DNA of 64,000 nucleotides from Pseudomonadota bacterium. Its GTDB lineage: Bacteria; Bdellovibrionota_B; Oligoflexia; Oligoflexales; CAIYRB01. The DNA lies in the NCBI GenBank assembly GCA_026390435.1, contig JAPLFY010000036.1:1-64000 (forward strand). Direction: 5' to 3'. The position numbers and the translations under genes are program-made. The notes under the pieces are model-generated. The model saw only the letters and a program-made list of their open reading frames with translations, was not told the origin of the DNA and searched no databases. Positions 1 to 5,659 of the stretch are shown one piece after another; the first letter of the stretch is position 1, and each line of letters begins with the position of its first letter.

Positions 1-786
1 TTGGGCACGCGTCTTTACGTTCTATTTTGGTTCACTCTGCTGGCTGTTCTGACGGCAGCCTGGCCTTGGTATAATGCGCGCAGCGGCGAATATTTCCGTT
101 ATTGGCTAGGATGGAGCGGCTTTGGCGTCATCTGCCTAACCAACCTATACATCTTGCGCAAGAAAATACCGGCCATCAAAGACCTAGGTAACGTTTCCGG
201 ATGGTTAAATTTCCACATATTTTGCGGCTTAATAGGCCCCACGTTAATCATTTTTCATTCGAATTTTCGCGTCAACGGCCTAGTCGCAATTAGTTTCTGG
301 AGCATGATGATCAGCGCCACCAGCGGTGTCGTCGGTCGCTATTTTTATACACAAATACTCCAGCAACGAGGATCCTTGAAAGGTCAACTTCGCACCTACG
401 ACCAAGGCTTTGTTAAGCTGCAACAAGTCGCACCCCAGACCTACTCGGCAGCGATGCTATCCCAAGCAAAAAGCGAAGCCTTGAGAATGGCGTTTGGTGG
501 CCATACAATGAAAGAGATTCCGCGAAGTCTAACGACTGTAATCCTTTATTCTATACTCGGTGATATTCAATTTTATTTGAAACCATTGCCAGTTCACGTT
601 CAAACATCTAGAGCTGTTCGTCGCAAGTTAAAAGAATACGGCGTCATGCAGCGTAAACTTGCATTATTGGACGCATATAAACGGCTGATGGGATACTGGC
701 ATACTTTCCACGTGCCATTTGCTGTATTTATGTATGTAGTAGCGATCATTCATATCGTAGCGGAGCTACTTTTCCGCGTGAAATAG
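1..786 (+). CDS. Membrane cytochrome b-like protein, first gene of a redox operon
   Basis: A 261-residue inner-membrane protein. Hydrophobic segments lie near residues 5-23, 34-52, 68-86, 92-112 and 236-257, with a soluble loop of about 110 residues between the fourth and fifth. His72 and His86 are 14 apart on one helix, and His237 and His251 are 14 apart on the last helix. This is the classic spacing for two stacked bis-His b haems, as in ferric-reductase and cytochrome b families. I infer that it passes electrons across the inner membrane to the periplasmic side. The next genes encode an Fe-S flavoprotein, a barrel candidate and a 24-haem cytochrome, all on the same strand. The first codon is TTG at the window edge, so the true start may lie upstream. 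No exact family is recognised. Confidence 0.7.
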   Translation: MGTRLYVLFWFTLLAVLTAAWPWYNARSGEYFRYWLGWSGFGVICLTNLYILRKKIPAIKDLGNVSGWLNFHIFCGLIGPTLIIFHSNFRVNGLVAISFWSMMISATSGVVGRYFYTQILQQRGSLKGQLRTYDQGFVKLQQVAPQTYSAAMLSQAKSEALRMAFGGHTMKEIPRSLTTVILYSILGDIQFYLKPLPVHVQTSRAVRRKLKEYGVMQRKLALLDAYKRLMGYWHTFHVPFAVFMYVVAIIHIVAELLFRVK

Positions 787-812
787 TTCGCGGAGTGTGG
801 AGGATGTGATCA

Positions 813-2180
813 TTGGATTGGCCTGCCTTTTCATACTGGACAGCAGACAATCTACCCTACCTGATGGCCACGGCCATCTTAGGTCTAACTTTTGCCGTTC
901 TATCCAAGCGAAAGAAATCCAACCTTCGGGCCTCAAATGTTTTAAAAGTTGCGATAGAAAAAAACCAAGCTGAACCGTTCTCGCTGCACCCCAGCATCGA
1001 CCCCAATTTATGCGCAGGCTGCGGTGCCTGCGTGCGCGCATGCCCAGAGGGTGACATCCTTCAACTGATTAATCACCGTGCGGCACTAGTGGCGCCAACT
1101 AAATGCGTCGGCCACGGAGAGTGTGAGGCAGCCTGTCCATTCGATGCCATCACTCTTGTTTTCGGCACCAAAACTCGCGGCAAAGACATACCCCGGATCA
1201 CCAGCCACTATGAAACCAATATTCCTGGCCTTTACATCGCTGGTGAACTAGGCGGAATGGGACTTATTCGTAATGCCGTCAGGCAGGGGCGCAAAGCAGT
1301 AGAGCATGCGGTAGAGCAACTAAAAAAGAAGACACAAACAACTGCGGACTTTGACCTAATAGTCATCGGCGCGGGACCGGCAGGTATTGCTGCCGGGCTA
1401 GCGGCACAACATGCCGGTCTAAATTATCTCTGCATAGAACAGGGGCAATTTGGTGGCACAATTGCGAATTTTCCCCGTCAAAAAATCATCATGACTCAAC
1501 CCGCAGAGCTCCCTATCGTCGGTGCCATGCGTTTTCCGCGCCACCGAGTAAGCAAAGAAGAGTTAATGCAACGCTGGGACGAGATCCGTCGGTCGACTGG
1601 ACTTAAGGTTCAAGAACAAACAAAATTTGAGACGTTACAACGTATCGACGGCATATTTCACCTAAAGACAAGTGCGGGCCCGCTTAGCGCAAGGCGGGTT
1701 ATTCTTGCCCTTGGGGTCCGTGGCACACCGCGACGACTTGGCTTGGCCGGCGAGAGCCTATCCAAAGTGACCTACCACCTGATTGAGCCCGATCAATATA
1801 AAGACCAGCATATTTCGGTTGTTGGCAGTGGCAATTCGGCTGCTGAGGCTGTGGATATGTTGTGTAAAAAGCACCTAGGCAACACGGTCACTTTATTGGC
1901 TATAACTCCAGGTTTCGATCGTTGTAATTTTGAGAATGAAGAAAAGGTGCGAAAAGCCGAAAAATCTGGCTCAGTCAAACTCATGTTCGAAACTAAGGTC
2001 GAGGAAATCCATGCAGACAGGCTGGAGATTAATGTCAATGGTCGGCGGCAATCGATAAAAAATGATTATCTTTTCATTTTTATTGGGGCCGAGATGCAAA
2101 CTAAGTTCTTCGCAGATATAGGCATCAACATCGATCGAAAATTTGGTGAACCACTGCGCAAGGACCACGAAAAGGAATGA
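813..2180 (+). CDS. Membrane-anchored ferredoxin-flavin oxidoreductase (TrxR-like, permuted)
   Basis: A 455-residue protein with one N-terminal membrane segment (about residues 13-31). A di-cluster ferredoxin domain follows: Cys67, 70, 73 and 77 form a normal 4Fe-4S motif. The second motif is Cys98, His101, Cys104, Cys108, with His where the second Cys is usual. Residues 180-195 hold the FAD-binding GAGPAG Rossmann motif, and the NAD(P)-binding motif VVGSGNSAAEA lies near residue 346. The FAD-closing motif NIPGLYIAGELGG normally ends this fold, but here it sits at residues 136-148, before the first Rossmann motif. The start is TTG at 813 with GGAGG nine bases upstream; an ATG just upstream stops at once. 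It probably moves electrons between NAD(P)H and the cytochrome b encoded upstream. Confidence 0.8.
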   Translation: MDWPAFSYWTADNLPYLMATAILGLTFAVLSKRKKSNLRASNVLKVAIEKNQAEPFSLHPSIDPNLCAGCGACVRACPEGDILQLINHRAALVAPTKCVGHGECEAACPFDAITLVFGTKTRGKDIPRITSHYETNIPGLYIAGELGGMGLIRNAVRQGRKAVEHAVEQLKKKTQTTADFDLIVIGAGPAGIAAGLAAQHAGLNYLCIEQGQFGGTIANFPRQKIIMTQPAELPIVGAMRFPRHRVSKEELMQRWDEIRRSTGLKVQEQTKFETLQRIDGIFHLKTSAGPLSARRVILALGVRGTPRRLGLAGESLSKVTYHLIEPDQYKDQHISVVGSGNSAAEAVDMLCKKHLGNTVTLLAITPGFDRCNFENEEKVRKAEKSGSVKLMFETKVEEIHADRLEINVNGRRQSIKNDYLFIFIGAEMQTKFFADIGINIDRKFGEPLRKDHEKE

Positions 2181-3577
2181 TACGACCGCGCTGGATTTCA
2201 TTACTACCGATCACGGAGTCTATGCGACGGCCGCGAAGGTGCGCCACCTTAGCTTGGACATTTCTTATCTTGGCGCTACTCGTGGCTGGCGAGGCTCTTT
2301 CTTATGAATATCATGGCTCACTTTTAAGCGGTGGATATCTGGCCCGCGAGGATATTACGGGAGAGAGTGAAGTAAACACCGACAATGACCGTGCCGTATT
2401 TTCTGGCCGAGCCTATCTAGATGTCAACCGGATCGGCTCACAGCAGTATCAATTCACGGCTGATCTACGCGACAAGCACGATTTCTTCGACAAAATTGAC
2501 ACGCAGCGTCTGCAATTATCCGGCAAGAACACCCCTCGTTTAAGACAACTAGTGGTTAGGAATCCCGGAACATCGCAATCCCTTTATTGGTCTGTTGGCC
2601 GCTTTCTCCCGGCCGAAAACAACGTCATCTACAACGATGGCCTCGAAGGCGGCATTCGCCTTTCGGCTAACCATAAAGTGGGGGTCTTTGCCGGCTATAG
2701 GCCAAAAATAAATGAGGAACGTGCGGCAAACCTGGGATCTAACGCCTATCAAACCGGCATTTACCATGTGTATCAGAATGACGCGTCCTCTTGGGACGAA
2801 GGGAAATATCTCAGCAATATGCTGGTCTACGCTCCGCAATACTTCGATGATCAGCCCACCCCCACCATGGCATTCATAAACCAAGGATTCTTACACCTCG
2901 GTGCCGACAATAGACTGCTGACTTATCTCAACATCCAGGGCACCCCAGACGTCCGAGTCGAAGACGCAAAGTTCGAATTCGATAAACGCTTTAACCCAAA
3001 ACTATCGACGAGATTCATTGCTTCACGTATCGATCTTATCGAATACCGTAATCAACGGGATATTTTAGAACGCCTTCCTCCATCCGCTTACTCTCAAGCA
3101 AAAATTTCCAGTCAATATCGGTTGAATGGGACTATGCGGCTCGACGGAAACCTATTAGCAGGCCAGCGAGAAGGTGACAGATTGCGTAAATATGAAGTGT
3201 CTGGAGGAGCAAACTTCACCAAACTTGCCGCGGGTCATATAGCCATAGGCGCCCACATGGGTGCGCGACGCGGTTTTATTAGTCGAGACTTATTTGCAGC
3301 CAGCACAATCAGTTGGTTTACTGATAAATGGCTGATCGATGCCGATCTCCGGGTAACTAGACAACAGCGCGACTCGGGCGTGATCCGAAATCAATATATC
3401 ATCGGATCGAATCTTGGCCTTTATGCAACCCGCTCCCTGCTCGCCACGGCTGGCGCTGAATTAGCAAAAGACGAGAATATAACAATCGTCAGCGGCTTGC
3501 TGACGATCGGGTACCGATTTGGTAGTCGTGAATTAACACCGCTGCGCGACGTAGCTCCGCCAAACACGAGGTTCTAA
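2177..3577 (+). CDS. Putative outer-membrane beta-barrel of the redox operon
   Basis: A 466-residue protein with an Arg-rich N-terminus and a hydrophobic signal segment ending near residues 40-43, followed by long alternating-polarity stretches with many Tyr, Arg and Gly residues. This pattern is typical of transmembrane beta-strands. No cysteine pair or haem motif is present in the mature part. The gene overlaps the upstream stop by four bases (ATGA), and the cytochrome gene starts directly after its stop codon. A second ATG at 2222 gives a more typical signal peptide and may be the true start. In porin-cytochrome conduits such as MtrCAB, a barrel houses a multihaem cytochrome; a similar role is inferred here from gene order only. 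I do not recognise the family. Confidence 0.6.
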   Translation: MIRPRWISLLPITESMRRPRRCATLAWTFLILALLVAGEALSYEYHGSLLSGGYLAREDITGESEVNTDNDRAVFSGRAYLDVNRIGSQQYQFTADLRDKHDFFDKIDTQRLQLSGKNTPRLRQLVVRNPGTSQSLYWSVGRFLPAENNVIYNDGLEGGIRLSANHKVGVFAGYRPKINEERAANLGSNAYQTGIYHVYQNDASSWDEGKYLSNMLVYAPQYFDDQPTPTMAFINQGFLHLGADNRLLTYLNIQGTPDVRVEDAKFEFDKRFNPKLSTRFIASRIDLIEYRNQRDILERLPPSAYSQAKISSQYRLNGTMRLDGNLLAGQREGDRLRKYEVSGGANFTKLAAGHIAIGAHMGARRGFISRDLFAASTISWFTDKWLIDADLRVTRQQRDSGVIRNQYIIGSNLGLYATRSLLATAGAELAKDENITIVSGLLTIGYRFGSRELTPLRDVAPPNTRF

Positions 3578-5659
3578 ATGTCGCGGCTGCTTACTTTGAT
3601 CATCTCTATTTACTTTGCCCTTTGCTCCCCACTCACACAGGCGCACGGACAAACCCAATTAAAAGCGAAGGCTCCGCCACCGTCTCCCCAGGGTATTTTG
3701 AACAAACTCTTAGCGCCTGGCCCGCTGATGAAGGGTCACAAAGACCTTGAGCACGCAGACTGTCTCAGTTGCCATACCGCTGGCAAAGGTGTCCCAGATC
3801 GCAAATGTCTGGACTGCCACAAAGAAATCAGACAATCGATGAACAAGCCAAAATCCTTCCATAAATTAACCGAACAGGAGTGCATAGGTTGTCACAGTGA
3901 TCATCAGGGCCGTGATTATGACGCCGTGCAATTTGACACGGAGTCATTTGATCACAATAAAACCGGCTATTCTTTAACCTCGGAACACGCAAAATTAAAG
4001 TGCGCCGAATGTCATACCGACACCCGCAAAGAAAAGGCAATCCGCCCAAATGACACTCGATTCTTCGGACCAGTTGCCACCTGCAAGAGTTGTCATATTA
4101 AAGACGACACCCATGACTTTAAAGGGAAGTGGGCGGCAATGGATTGTAATGAATGCCATCGCGAGGACACATGGAAGGTTGCCAGTTGGTTTGAACCGTT
4201 AAAAAATAGTAGCCCTAAAAAACAAGAAGGATTTAATCACAACACGCAAACTCGGTACCAAATAGACGGCAAACATAGCAACGTCGCATGCAATGACTGT
4301 CATAAGTTAATACCAAATCAAAAAGCAAAAAATAGCACTGAACGGCAATATATCTGGCCTGATTTGAAAACGAAAACATGTGAAAGCTGCCACAAAAACC
4401 CTCATGCTGGTAAATTTTCCCCTGCACTTCAGGCTAAATCTTGCACCGAATGTCATGTTACTAGCAGTTGGACAAACTTTCCCGCACTAGAGAAGAACTT
4501 TGATCATAATCAGTTGACTAGATTTGCGCTGACTGGGAAGCATAAAGACATTACCTGCAAGTCATGTCACGTTCGTGACGGCAAGCCGATTTACAAATTC
4601 CCCAACGACTATGCTGGTTTTTGCGTAAGCTGTCATAGCAACATACATAAAGATCAATTCCGCCACGATTACTCCTCCGAATCCTGCGCCACCTGCCACG
4701 GCACCACTACATTTTCGGAGCTCAAGCCGTTTAATCACGACAAGCAATCCAACTTTAAGCTGACGGGGGATCACTGGCGAATAAAAGATCAGTGCATCAA
4801 ATGCCACACACCAACAAATAAAATCCTAACCGAGGAGCCTATAAAACACCCTGGTCGATTTGTCTTTGAGCACCCCGAAAAAAACTACTGCATCGACTGC
4901 CACACGAATGTGCACAAGGATCAGTTCCACTCCAATTTCGCTGAAAAGTCCTGCTCTGATTGTCACACGACAGTGGATTTTCTGAAGAACCTTCCATTTA
5001 ATCACAACCAAACAAATTACCCGATCAAAGGTAAGCATAGTGAACTTGGTTGTATAAAGTGTCACACACCAACGCACGCAATGTATGCACCGCCATATAA
5101 AAAACCAAAGGGGAAATATATATTCCCGGATCTTAAAAGTCGCAATTGTGCCGCATGCCACAGCGACCCACACAAAGGCAAACTAGGCACGCGTTGCATG
5201 GACTGCCATTCTGAATCTCACAATTGGTCATCGATAGAAGATTTCCACAAAAACTTCTTACTCGTTGGCGCCCACAACCTGTTGAGCTGCGAACAGTGTC
5301 ATGGCCAAGACAATCGCCGGCGGCTCACTGGGGCGAGCGAGCGCTGTGTTTTCTGCCACAAGAAGGACGATAATCACAACGGCGGATTACCCGAGTGCCA
5401 ACAATGTCACTCGCAGCAAACCTGGCAAGCAACTACGTTTCATCATTCGATGTCGCAATTTCCACTGATTGGCGCTCACCGCACGGCCGAGTGCAATGCC
5501 TGTCACCGTAATGGTCAATATCAAGGAACGCCGACAGACTGCGCTAGTTGCCACGCCAAAGACGCTCGCGCGGTCACATTTCCGAATCACTCACTACCCG
5601 GATTTGAAGAATGTAGTGAATGCCACAATCAGTTCTCTTTTCGAGGAAAAGGCCGCTAG
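3578..5659 (+). CDS. 24-haem c-type cytochrome, secreted
   Basis: A 693-residue protein with a signal peptide (about residues 1-23). I count 24 CXXCH haem-attachment motifs spread from residue 62 to the C-terminus, about one per 29 residues. Seven of them are preceded by a repeated block with Phe-Asp/Asn-His, then a G-x-H about a dozen residues on, then the CXXCH. The extra histidines probably act as distal haem ligands, as in cytochrome c3-type multihaem proteins. The mature protein would fold in the periplasm or on the cell surface after Sec export and haem attachment. As last gene of a compact operon with a cytochrome b, an Fe-S flavoprotein and a barrel candidate, it most likely stores or conducts electrons across the periplasm or outer membrane. 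Confidence 0.9.
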   Translation: MSRLLTLIISIYFALCSPLTQAHGQTQLKAKAPPPSPQGILNKLLAPGPLMKGHKDLEHADCLSCHTAGKGVPDRKCLDCHKEIRQSMNKPKSFHKLTEQECIGCHSDHQGRDYDAVQFDTESFDHNKTGYSLTSEHAKLKCAECHTDTRKEKAIRPNDTRFFGPVATCKSCHIKDDTHDFKGKWAAMDCNECHREDTWKVASWFEPLKNSSPKKQEGFNHNTQTRYQIDGKHSNVACNDCHKLIPNQKAKNSTERQYIWPDLKTKTCESCHKNPHAGKFSPALQAKSCTECHVTSSWTNFPALEKNFDHNQLTRFALTGKHKDITCKSCHVRDGKPIYKFPNDYAGFCVSCHSNIHKDQFRHDYSSESCATCHGTTTFSELKPFNHDKQSNFKLTGDHWRIKDQCIKCHTPTNKILTEEPIKHPGRFVFEHPEKNYCIDCHTNVHKDQFHSNFAEKSCSDCHTTVDFLKNLPFNHNQTNYPIKGKHSELGCIKCHTPTHAMYAPPYKKPKGKYIFPDLKSRNCAACHSDPHKGKLGTRCMDCHSESHNWSSIEDFHKNFLLVGAHNLLSCEQCHGQDNRRRLTGASERCVFCHKKDDNHNGGLPECQQCHSQQTWQATTFHHSMSQFPLIGAHRTAECNACHRNGQYQGTPTDCASCHAKDARAVTFPNHSLPGFEECSECHNQFSFRGKGR

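Follow-up and report, generated by a model that had tools for sequence, protein, structure and literature searches.

A PCC3-related gene cluster in an Oligoflexia genome: a candidate trans-envelope electron conduit with an Fe-S/FAD flavoprotein

Introduction

He et al. defined the PCC3 porin-cytochrome clusters in 2017 by a porin, an extracellular multihaem cytochrome (MHC) with a median of 34 haems, a periplasmic MHC with a median of 21 haems and few residues per haem, and an inner-membrane protein (IMP) of about 300 aa, which carries two WX3HX13H motifs and an SGxxG motif (PMC5566968). The hosts described there include Sideroxydans, Leptothrix and Bradyrhizobium sp. STM 3843, many of the hosts are iron oxidisers, and the same article proposes a quinone-linked inward flow of electrons for PCC3. 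Growth on Fe(II) was reported to go with down-regulation of both PCC3 clusters of Sideroxydans ES-1 (PMC8788666). The PCC3 passages of published accounts (PMC5566968, PMC10734462, PMC8788666, PMC12016527, PMC12442390, PMC13386937) present four components and do not name a flavoprotein of the type encoded by gene 2 below; redox proteins do figure in He et al., next to the IMPs of PCC4 and of other clusters (PMC5566968).

Results

Organisation of the locus

The DNA analysed here, called the window, is a stretch of 64,000 nucleotides from a bacterium of the GTDB lineage Bdellovibrionota_B; Oligoflexia; Oligoflexales (assembly GCA_026390435.1, contig JAPLFY010000036.1, positions 1 to 64,000). The locus lies at the edge of the contig, at the start of the window, and consists of four plus-strand genes within 1-5659. 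The first-pass annotation of this DNA had described a four-gene electron-transfer operon whose last three genes overlap or abut, and this was borne out by the open reading frames at 1-786, 813-2180, 2177-3577 and 3578-5659. A gap of 26 bases separates gene 2 from gene 1, the end of gene 2 shares 4 bases with gene 3, gene 3 abuts gene 4, and the gene after gene 4 is on the opposite strand. The features are as follows.

1..786, + strand: gene 1, cytochrome b-like inner-membrane protein, homologue of the PCC3 IMP, 261 aa (PCC3-IMP profile; all-helical AlphaFold2 model)
214..258, + strand: first H-x13-H pair, H72/H86, preceded by W68 (invariant in a 24-row alignment)
322..336, + strand: SGxxG motif, residues 108-112 (G109 and G112 invariant, S108 nearly so, in the 24-row alignment)
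709..753, + strand: second H-x13-H pair, H237/H251, preceded by W233 (invariant in the 24-row alignment)
813..2180, + strand: gene 2, membrane-anchored 2[Fe-S]/FAD/NAD(P)-type flavoprotein, 455 aa (Pfam; nearest solved relatives YpdA/Bdr and thioredoxin reductases)
1011..1043, + strand: first cluster motif of gene 2, C67-x2-C-x2-C-x3-C77 (sequence)
1104..1136, + strand: second cluster motif of gene 2, C98-x2-H101-x2-C104-x3-C108, with His replacing a Cys (sequence, homologues)
1368..1385, + strand: FAD-binding GAGPAG, residues 186-191 (sequence)
1824..1841, + strand: NAD(P)-binding-type GSGNSA, residues 338-343 (sequence; Pyr_redox_3 match)
2177..3577, + strand: gene 3, predicted outer-membrane beta-barrel, 466 aa with signal peptide, alternative ATG at 2222 (22 predicted strands; Foldseek matches to porins and ushers)
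2177..2221, + strand: site of a small multihaem gene in relatives, with nothing there in the window (comparison with relatives)
2597..2704, + strand: conserved barrel signature of gene 3, residues 141-176, starting with GRF and containing DG (resembles GRQxxxxxGVLGRFDG of PCC3 porins)
3578..5659, + strand: gene 4, 24-haem cytochrome, homologue of the PCC3 periplasmic MHC, 693 aa (masked profile; CXXCH count)

The start codon of gene 1 is a TTG at the contig edge, and since it lines up with the starts in 11 relatives in the alignment, the gene is not visibly truncated. For gene 3, the internal ATG is an equally plausible start. The identical gene order was found in locus L022, from a separate MAG of the same genus with proteins 88-95% identical, so the order is not an accident of assembly. 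By their sequence arrangement the four genes form one tight operon, which could be co-transcribed. Promoter and terminator scans at the locus gave counts near chance, and the promoter is expected beyond the contig edge. Elsewhere in the genus, a small gene for a one-haem, lipoprotein-like cytochrome c is divergent from gene 1 (L022:10718-11083, L025:5166-5534); in the window its position would fall past the contig edge.

Genes 1 and 4 are homologous to PCC3 components

The membrane cytochrome b with two histidine pairs noted in the first pass was recovered as the two W/H/H sets listed above. A profile built from 55 IMPs from outside the Bdellovibrionota, all of which retain both WX3HX13H motifs, matched gene 1 with 164.5 bits, and hhalign of gene 1 against the PCC3 IMP gave 100% (E 1.8e-45). 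Homology of gene 1 to the PCC3 inner-membrane protein is thus shown at the level of sequence. In the gene 1 tree, all 17 Bdellovibrionota-type sequences fell in one group (support 100/99) beside two from Myxococcota, and apart from the PCC3 proteins of Pseudomonadota (branch 100/100). The AlphaFold2 model is all-helical with a pLDDT of 86. Foldseek found no fold match to it in the PDB at E 0.001, solved cytochromes b included, perhaps because the model does not contain haem. A PDB sequence search gave chance matches only, and the Pfam search found 0 families, the FRD domain (PF01794) of ferric reductases and NOX included. Gene 1 is thus predicted to be a diheme-type cytochrome b, and the assignment of haem b stands on the histidine motif.

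Gene 4 encodes exactly 24 CXXCH motifs, as first counted, at 28.9 aa per haem, as compared with a mean of 0.28 and a maximum of 3 in shuffled versions. Haem motifs alone could give similarity, and therefore the gene 4 profile was used with the two C and the H of each CXXCH masked. Under this condition the PCC3-type periplasmic cytochromes scored 86-182 bits; the cytochromes of extracellular type from these clusters scored 25 bits or less, with one at 41. Because this internal control separates the two types of cytochrome, the homology of gene 4 to the periplasmic MHC of PCC3 is secure, and the 24-haem protein corresponds to the periplasmic wire rather than to the outermost cytochrome. Membership in other families was also considered. 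Gene 4 scored 57.3 bits on the MtrA/DmsE model (curated cut-off 192.2), and among the Ext models only ExtN (29.8 bits) and ExtO (28.6 bits) of selenite/tellurite operons matched, against a cut-off of 200; ExtABCD themselves have no entry among the curated models compared. The first-pass annotation had held that the parts match no Mtr, Pcc or Ext system. This stands for Mtr/DmsE and Ext, in which the scores are below the curated cut-offs, but not for genes 1 and 4, which are PCC3 homologues.

Gene 2 is a membrane-anchored flavoprotein with a histidine-substituted cluster motif

The proposed membrane-anchored Fe-S/flavin enzyme was also found. The gene 2 protein begins with a hydrophobic helix followed by basic residues. 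Two ferredoxin-type motifs (Pfam Fer4_10, E 2.2e-11) come next, and then a domain for FAD and NAD(P) (PF13738, E 1.6e-41). From the positive residues after the helix, the redox domains are predicted to face the cytoplasm. The second cluster motif was found in 94 of 98 gene 2 homologues, and in 94/94 of these His occupies the position of the second Cys. This C-x2-H-x2-C-x3-C motif, which would hold a His-ligated or three-Cys cluster, is a useful signature of the gene 2 family. The NAD(P) motif has no clear NADPH signature; the donor could therefore be ferredoxin, or gene 2 could be an acceptor.

In the PDB, the FAD/NAD(P) domain is closest to YpdA/Bdr (7a76, 7a7b; E about 1e-38), and it is common to YpdA/Bdr, thioredoxin reductase and gene 2. 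Unlike those enzymes, gene 2 has the N-terminal membrane helix and a 2[Fe-S] domain, and lacks CXXC. Its scores were 161.9 bits as a YpdA (curated cut-off 339.9) and 83.1 bits as a thioredoxin reductase (cut-off 343.45), and the redox CXXC was present in 0 of the 98 homologues. These solved relatives could suggest a function in maturation or detoxification, in which the barrel and haem proteins reduce a target in the envelope or at the surface, such as disulfides, metals or oxygen, and do not serve respiration. We regard this as improbable, since the thioredoxin reductase CXXC is missing throughout the homologues and haem wires of 24-36 haems adjoining a barrel are a hallmark of outer-membrane conduits.

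Gene 3 is predicted to be a 22-stranded outer-membrane barrel

The AlphaFold2 model of gene 3, made from a 24-sequence alignment, has 22 strands (mean pLDDT 79.6), and its best Foldseek matches are outer-membrane barrels, namely porins and ushers, with E about 1e-9 and TM-scores about 0.4. We attribute these low TM-scores to differing barrel sizes. The first-pass suspicion of a barrel is thus upheld by prediction. MtrB was absent among the 50 best Foldseek matches, Pfam gave no family at E 1, the MtrB/PioB-type porin included, and a PDB sequence search gave chance matches only.

Gene 3 and the PCC3 porins have a GR[FQ]...DG signature in common. When gene 3 was compared with the C-terminal part of the PCC3 porins by hhalign, a probability of 81.7% was obtained, and the reversed profile gave 0.3%; block-shuffled profiles reached up to 91%, although this control retains the common signature and is not a clean null. 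Gene 3 may therefore be a remote relative of the PCC3 porin at best. The barrel family is also present in Bdellovibrionota genomes.

Co-occurrence of the genes across genomes

When the GTDB genomes were scanned with an alignment of gene 2, at least 533 relatives turned up. The neighbourhoods of the best 80, which were kept, are mostly PCC3-type clusters, that of Bradyrhizobium sp. STM 3843 included (L094). These loci had been picked by gene 2, and so, as a less biased check, whole genomes were searched separately for each gene. Among 60 Gallionellaceae genomes, IMP and gene 2 were both present in 26 and both absent from 32, with a strong IMP alone in 0 and gene 2 alone in 2 (P 5e-15; for all co-occurrence P values the strong-match thresholds were chosen by us and genomes inside one family are not independent). 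The two genes lie within 3 kb of each other in 22 of the 26 pairs; of the remainder, two pairs are on different contigs and two are 5.6 kb and 821 kb apart. Among 150 genomes of the Bradyrhizobium family the corresponding counts were 2 with both, 0 and 0 with either alone, and 148 with neither, and both pairs are on the same contig within a few kb. From these sequence data, gene 2 is probably a missing partner of PCC3.

Gene 1 and the barrel were searched for in 241 Bdellovibrionota genomes in the same manner. Both were found in 16, gene 1 alone in 0, the barrel alone in 2 and neither in 223 (Fisher P 4e-23), so that 16/16 genomes with a strong gene 1 have gene 3. The pair is on one contig in 14 of the 16 genomes, in 8 of them within 500 bases. 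Scattering of the homologues, which would have spoken against the first interpretation, was not what these counts gave.

Relatives, the fifth gene and a second cluster

Gene 1 was found in 12 of the 58 genomes of the phylum, namely in every one of the six from the genus and in all but one of the seven from one family (f10). Genes 2, 3 and 4 follow it wherever the contig is long enough, and the linkage, for which the first-pass annotation had suggested a check, is kept in all six genus members and most of that family. In most relatives a fifth gene lies between genes 2 and 3, encoding a small protein of 2-4 haems, often with a lipobox-like sequence. Its likely counterpart in the Bdellovibrionota loci lies near gene 2 or gene 3 and has 20, 24 or 37 haems in complete frames, the largest one having 42 in a partial frame (L137). 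The conserved module of the relatives thus has five genes, and the locus in the window has four. Neither the fifth gene nor an extracellular MHC was found at this locus, and the small haem gene is likewise absent from the closest relative, L022.

The same genome contains a second cluster on another contig, C92 (L021:6374-12615), with a gene 2 homologue, a 4-haem protein, a barrel and a 36-haem cytochrome of 1011 aa. No gene 1 lies beside it; within this genome, gene 1 was found solely in the window. Two barrel genes, corresponding to two clusters, were present in 6/6 genus members. In two of these genomes (G015, G018) the small cytochrome is missing from the other cluster instead (L142, L143), in two others (G014, G016) both clusters have it, and every genome of the genus keeps at least one. 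These absences probably represent only two independent losses, and for this reason it is no more than a suggestion that one small cytochrome may serve both clusters of a genome.

The pattern also bears on whether the window locus is a decayed, non-functional copy that lost its outermost cytochrome, leaving the work to the C92 cluster. The small haem gene is indeed missing here and in the closest relative and present in C92. Against this, all four frames are open and conserved with L022 at the identities given above, the genome's only detected gene 1 is at this locus, and the other pair of genomes lost the gene from the opposite cluster. We regard decay as very improbable.

Other genes were observed around these loci. 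In two members of the genus, the second cluster has close to it a membrane protein whose cysteine motifs resemble those of HdrD/GlpC-type Fe-S reductases (L021:16662-18680, L145:10307-12346). In a Bdellovibrionota locus, ResB-like and CcsA-type cytochrome c assembly genes (System II haem attachment) adjoin a pair of a barrel and a 30-haem cytochrome (L138:9254-12788), and frames of similar size occur in L034 and L140. In PCC3 loci of Pseudomonadota, the gene 2 homologue is followed immediately downstream by an ankyrin-repeat protein of about 670-720 aa (L045:11313-13322, L088:11130-13298), and many other loci have a frame of like size at the same place. An Ignavibacteriales locus with an IMP and a gene 2 homologue encodes a protein with 61 CXXCH motifs (1521 aa; L064:12828-17393), and loci of this type carry the family beyond the Proteobacteria.

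Discussion

Relation to PCC3 and to other conduits

The locus has in common with PCC3 a homologous IMP, a homologous periplasmic cytochrome (21-27 haems in Gallionellaceae, 24 here), an adjoining barrel and a gene 2 homologue nearby. It differs in several respects. The PCC3 porin has about 660-890 aa with a long N-terminal region, whereas the barrel here has 466 aa and lacks that region. PCC3 has an extracellular cytochrome, whereas this locus has no large one and its relatives have the protein of 2-42 haems in that place. Gene 2 is within the operon here but often divergent in PCC3 loci elsewhere, and gene 1 belongs to the separate Bdellovibrionota-type clade. Because the extracellular MHC is absent and the barrel is at best remotely related to the PCC3 porin, we file the locus, on the available sequences, as a far-diverged PCC3-related variant and not as a PCC3 proper.

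By description only, the locus may also be likened to PCC4, which has an IMP with the same His motifs, one or more redox genes, a tetrahaem cytochrome and a porin, and no extracellular MHC (PMC5566968). As described there, however, the periplasmic cytochromes of PCC4 have 4, 5 and 10 haems as against 24 in gene 4, and the IMPs of PCC3 and PCC4 have no overall homology. The clusters that He et al. call 'other multihaem' are similar by description too, with a shorter IMP carrying two HX13H motifs, a neighbouring redox protein and an MHC, but a porin (24-25 transmembrane regions) is reported for just two of them, those of L. cholodnii SP-6 and C. ferrooxidans. MtrCAB, MtoAB and PioAB would work similarly, with a haem wire inside an outer-membrane barrel; the locus departs from them in the low DmsE/MtrA score of gene 4, in its 24 haems, and in a gene 3 of 22 strands with no Pfam match. 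In NADPH oxidases and ferric reductases, to which He et al. compared the IMP, flavin electrons pass to a diheme membrane cytochrome b. Here the flavin and membrane parts are separate proteins, there are additional Fe-S clusters, and gene 1 has no Pfam or fold match.

Proposed electron path

We propose, with a probability of roughly 0.6, that the four genes together encode a PCC3-related conduit for electrons across the envelope, leading from NAD(P)H or ferredoxin to the outside. The anchored gene 2 protein, with its Fe-S and FAD domains in the cytoplasm, would draw electrons from either NAD(P)H or ferredoxin in its reduced form and pass them from FAD through the Fe-S clusters, one of which has the conserved His for Cys, to gene 1. 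The two haems b of gene 1, held by the four invariant His, would carry the electrons across the inner membrane. From there the 24-haem wire of gene 4 would span the periplasm and reach into the 22-stranded barrel of gene 3, through which a soluble or surface acceptor outside would be reached. The 4-haem protein with a lipoprotein-like start, which in this genome was found only in the C92 cluster, may be the outermost relay. The C92 cluster counts against this conduit model, as it has gene 2 but no adjoining gene 1. The first-pass annotation had proposed a complete path between NAD(P)H and the outside, in either direction. Its NAD(P)H end is plausible and is strengthened by the co-occurrence, but 'complete' is doubtful, as the outermost cytochrome is absent here.

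In NADPH oxidases, electrons leave the cell down the membrane potential, from low to higher redox potential. Outward flow is also favoured for the locus, because NAD(P)H donates electrons at low potential and the way out is downhill in membrane potential. Electrons flowing inward to NAD(P)+ would have to move uphill on both counts unless there were extra coupling. The absence of a RuBisCO large-subunit match from the genome and the presence of a haem-copper oxidase are counted for the outward path as well. Electrons might instead enter from an outside donor through the barrel, the 24-haem wire and the cytochrome b into the quinone pool, with gene 2 as a side branch reducing NAD(P)+ or ferredoxin. 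He et al. likened the IMP to quinone-active cytochromes b (PMC5566968), iron oxidisers are frequent among PCC3 hosts, and the genome contains a haem-copper oxidase (one COX1), all of which agree with such a conduit. On the other hand, no RuBisCO large subunit was matched in the genome, which thus gives no hint of autotrophy by way of RuBisCO, an argument that concerns this fixation route only; PCC3 of ES-1 is not induced by Fe(II) (PMC8788666); and the steady pairing of IMP and flavoprotein is needless for a pure quinone link. We therefore consider inward flow unlikely, though less so than maturation or decay. The down-regulation in ES-1 speaks against one proposed role of PCC3 and does not test the outward model.

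Meaning for the family

The locus is real and conserved and is no artefact, but it is not wholly new, since two of its components are members of PCC3 families. Genomes have shown PCC3 clusters since 2017, and in the accounts cited above no function is demonstrated and no cytoplasmic partner named. The operon in the window unites parts that are usually split elsewhere. Extending the proposal, we suggest tentatively, and with less confidence than for this operon, that PCC3-type conduits in general (Pseudomonadota, Bdellovibrionota, Myxococcota, Ignavibacteriota and others) may be five-part lines whose cytoplasmic end is the His-substituted Fe-S flavoprotein. In that case a split NADPH-oxidase-like pair, gene 2 with gene 1, would connect them to NAD(P)H or ferredoxin for electron exchange, and not to the quinone pool. 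The co-occurrence counts make the source or destination of PCC3 electrons testable with a named protein. Our literature search on conduits in Bdellovibrionota and Oligoflexia found no description of such a system. The present locus and its relatives would place multihaem outer-membrane conduits in Bdellovibrionota and related bacteria, which are better known as predators.
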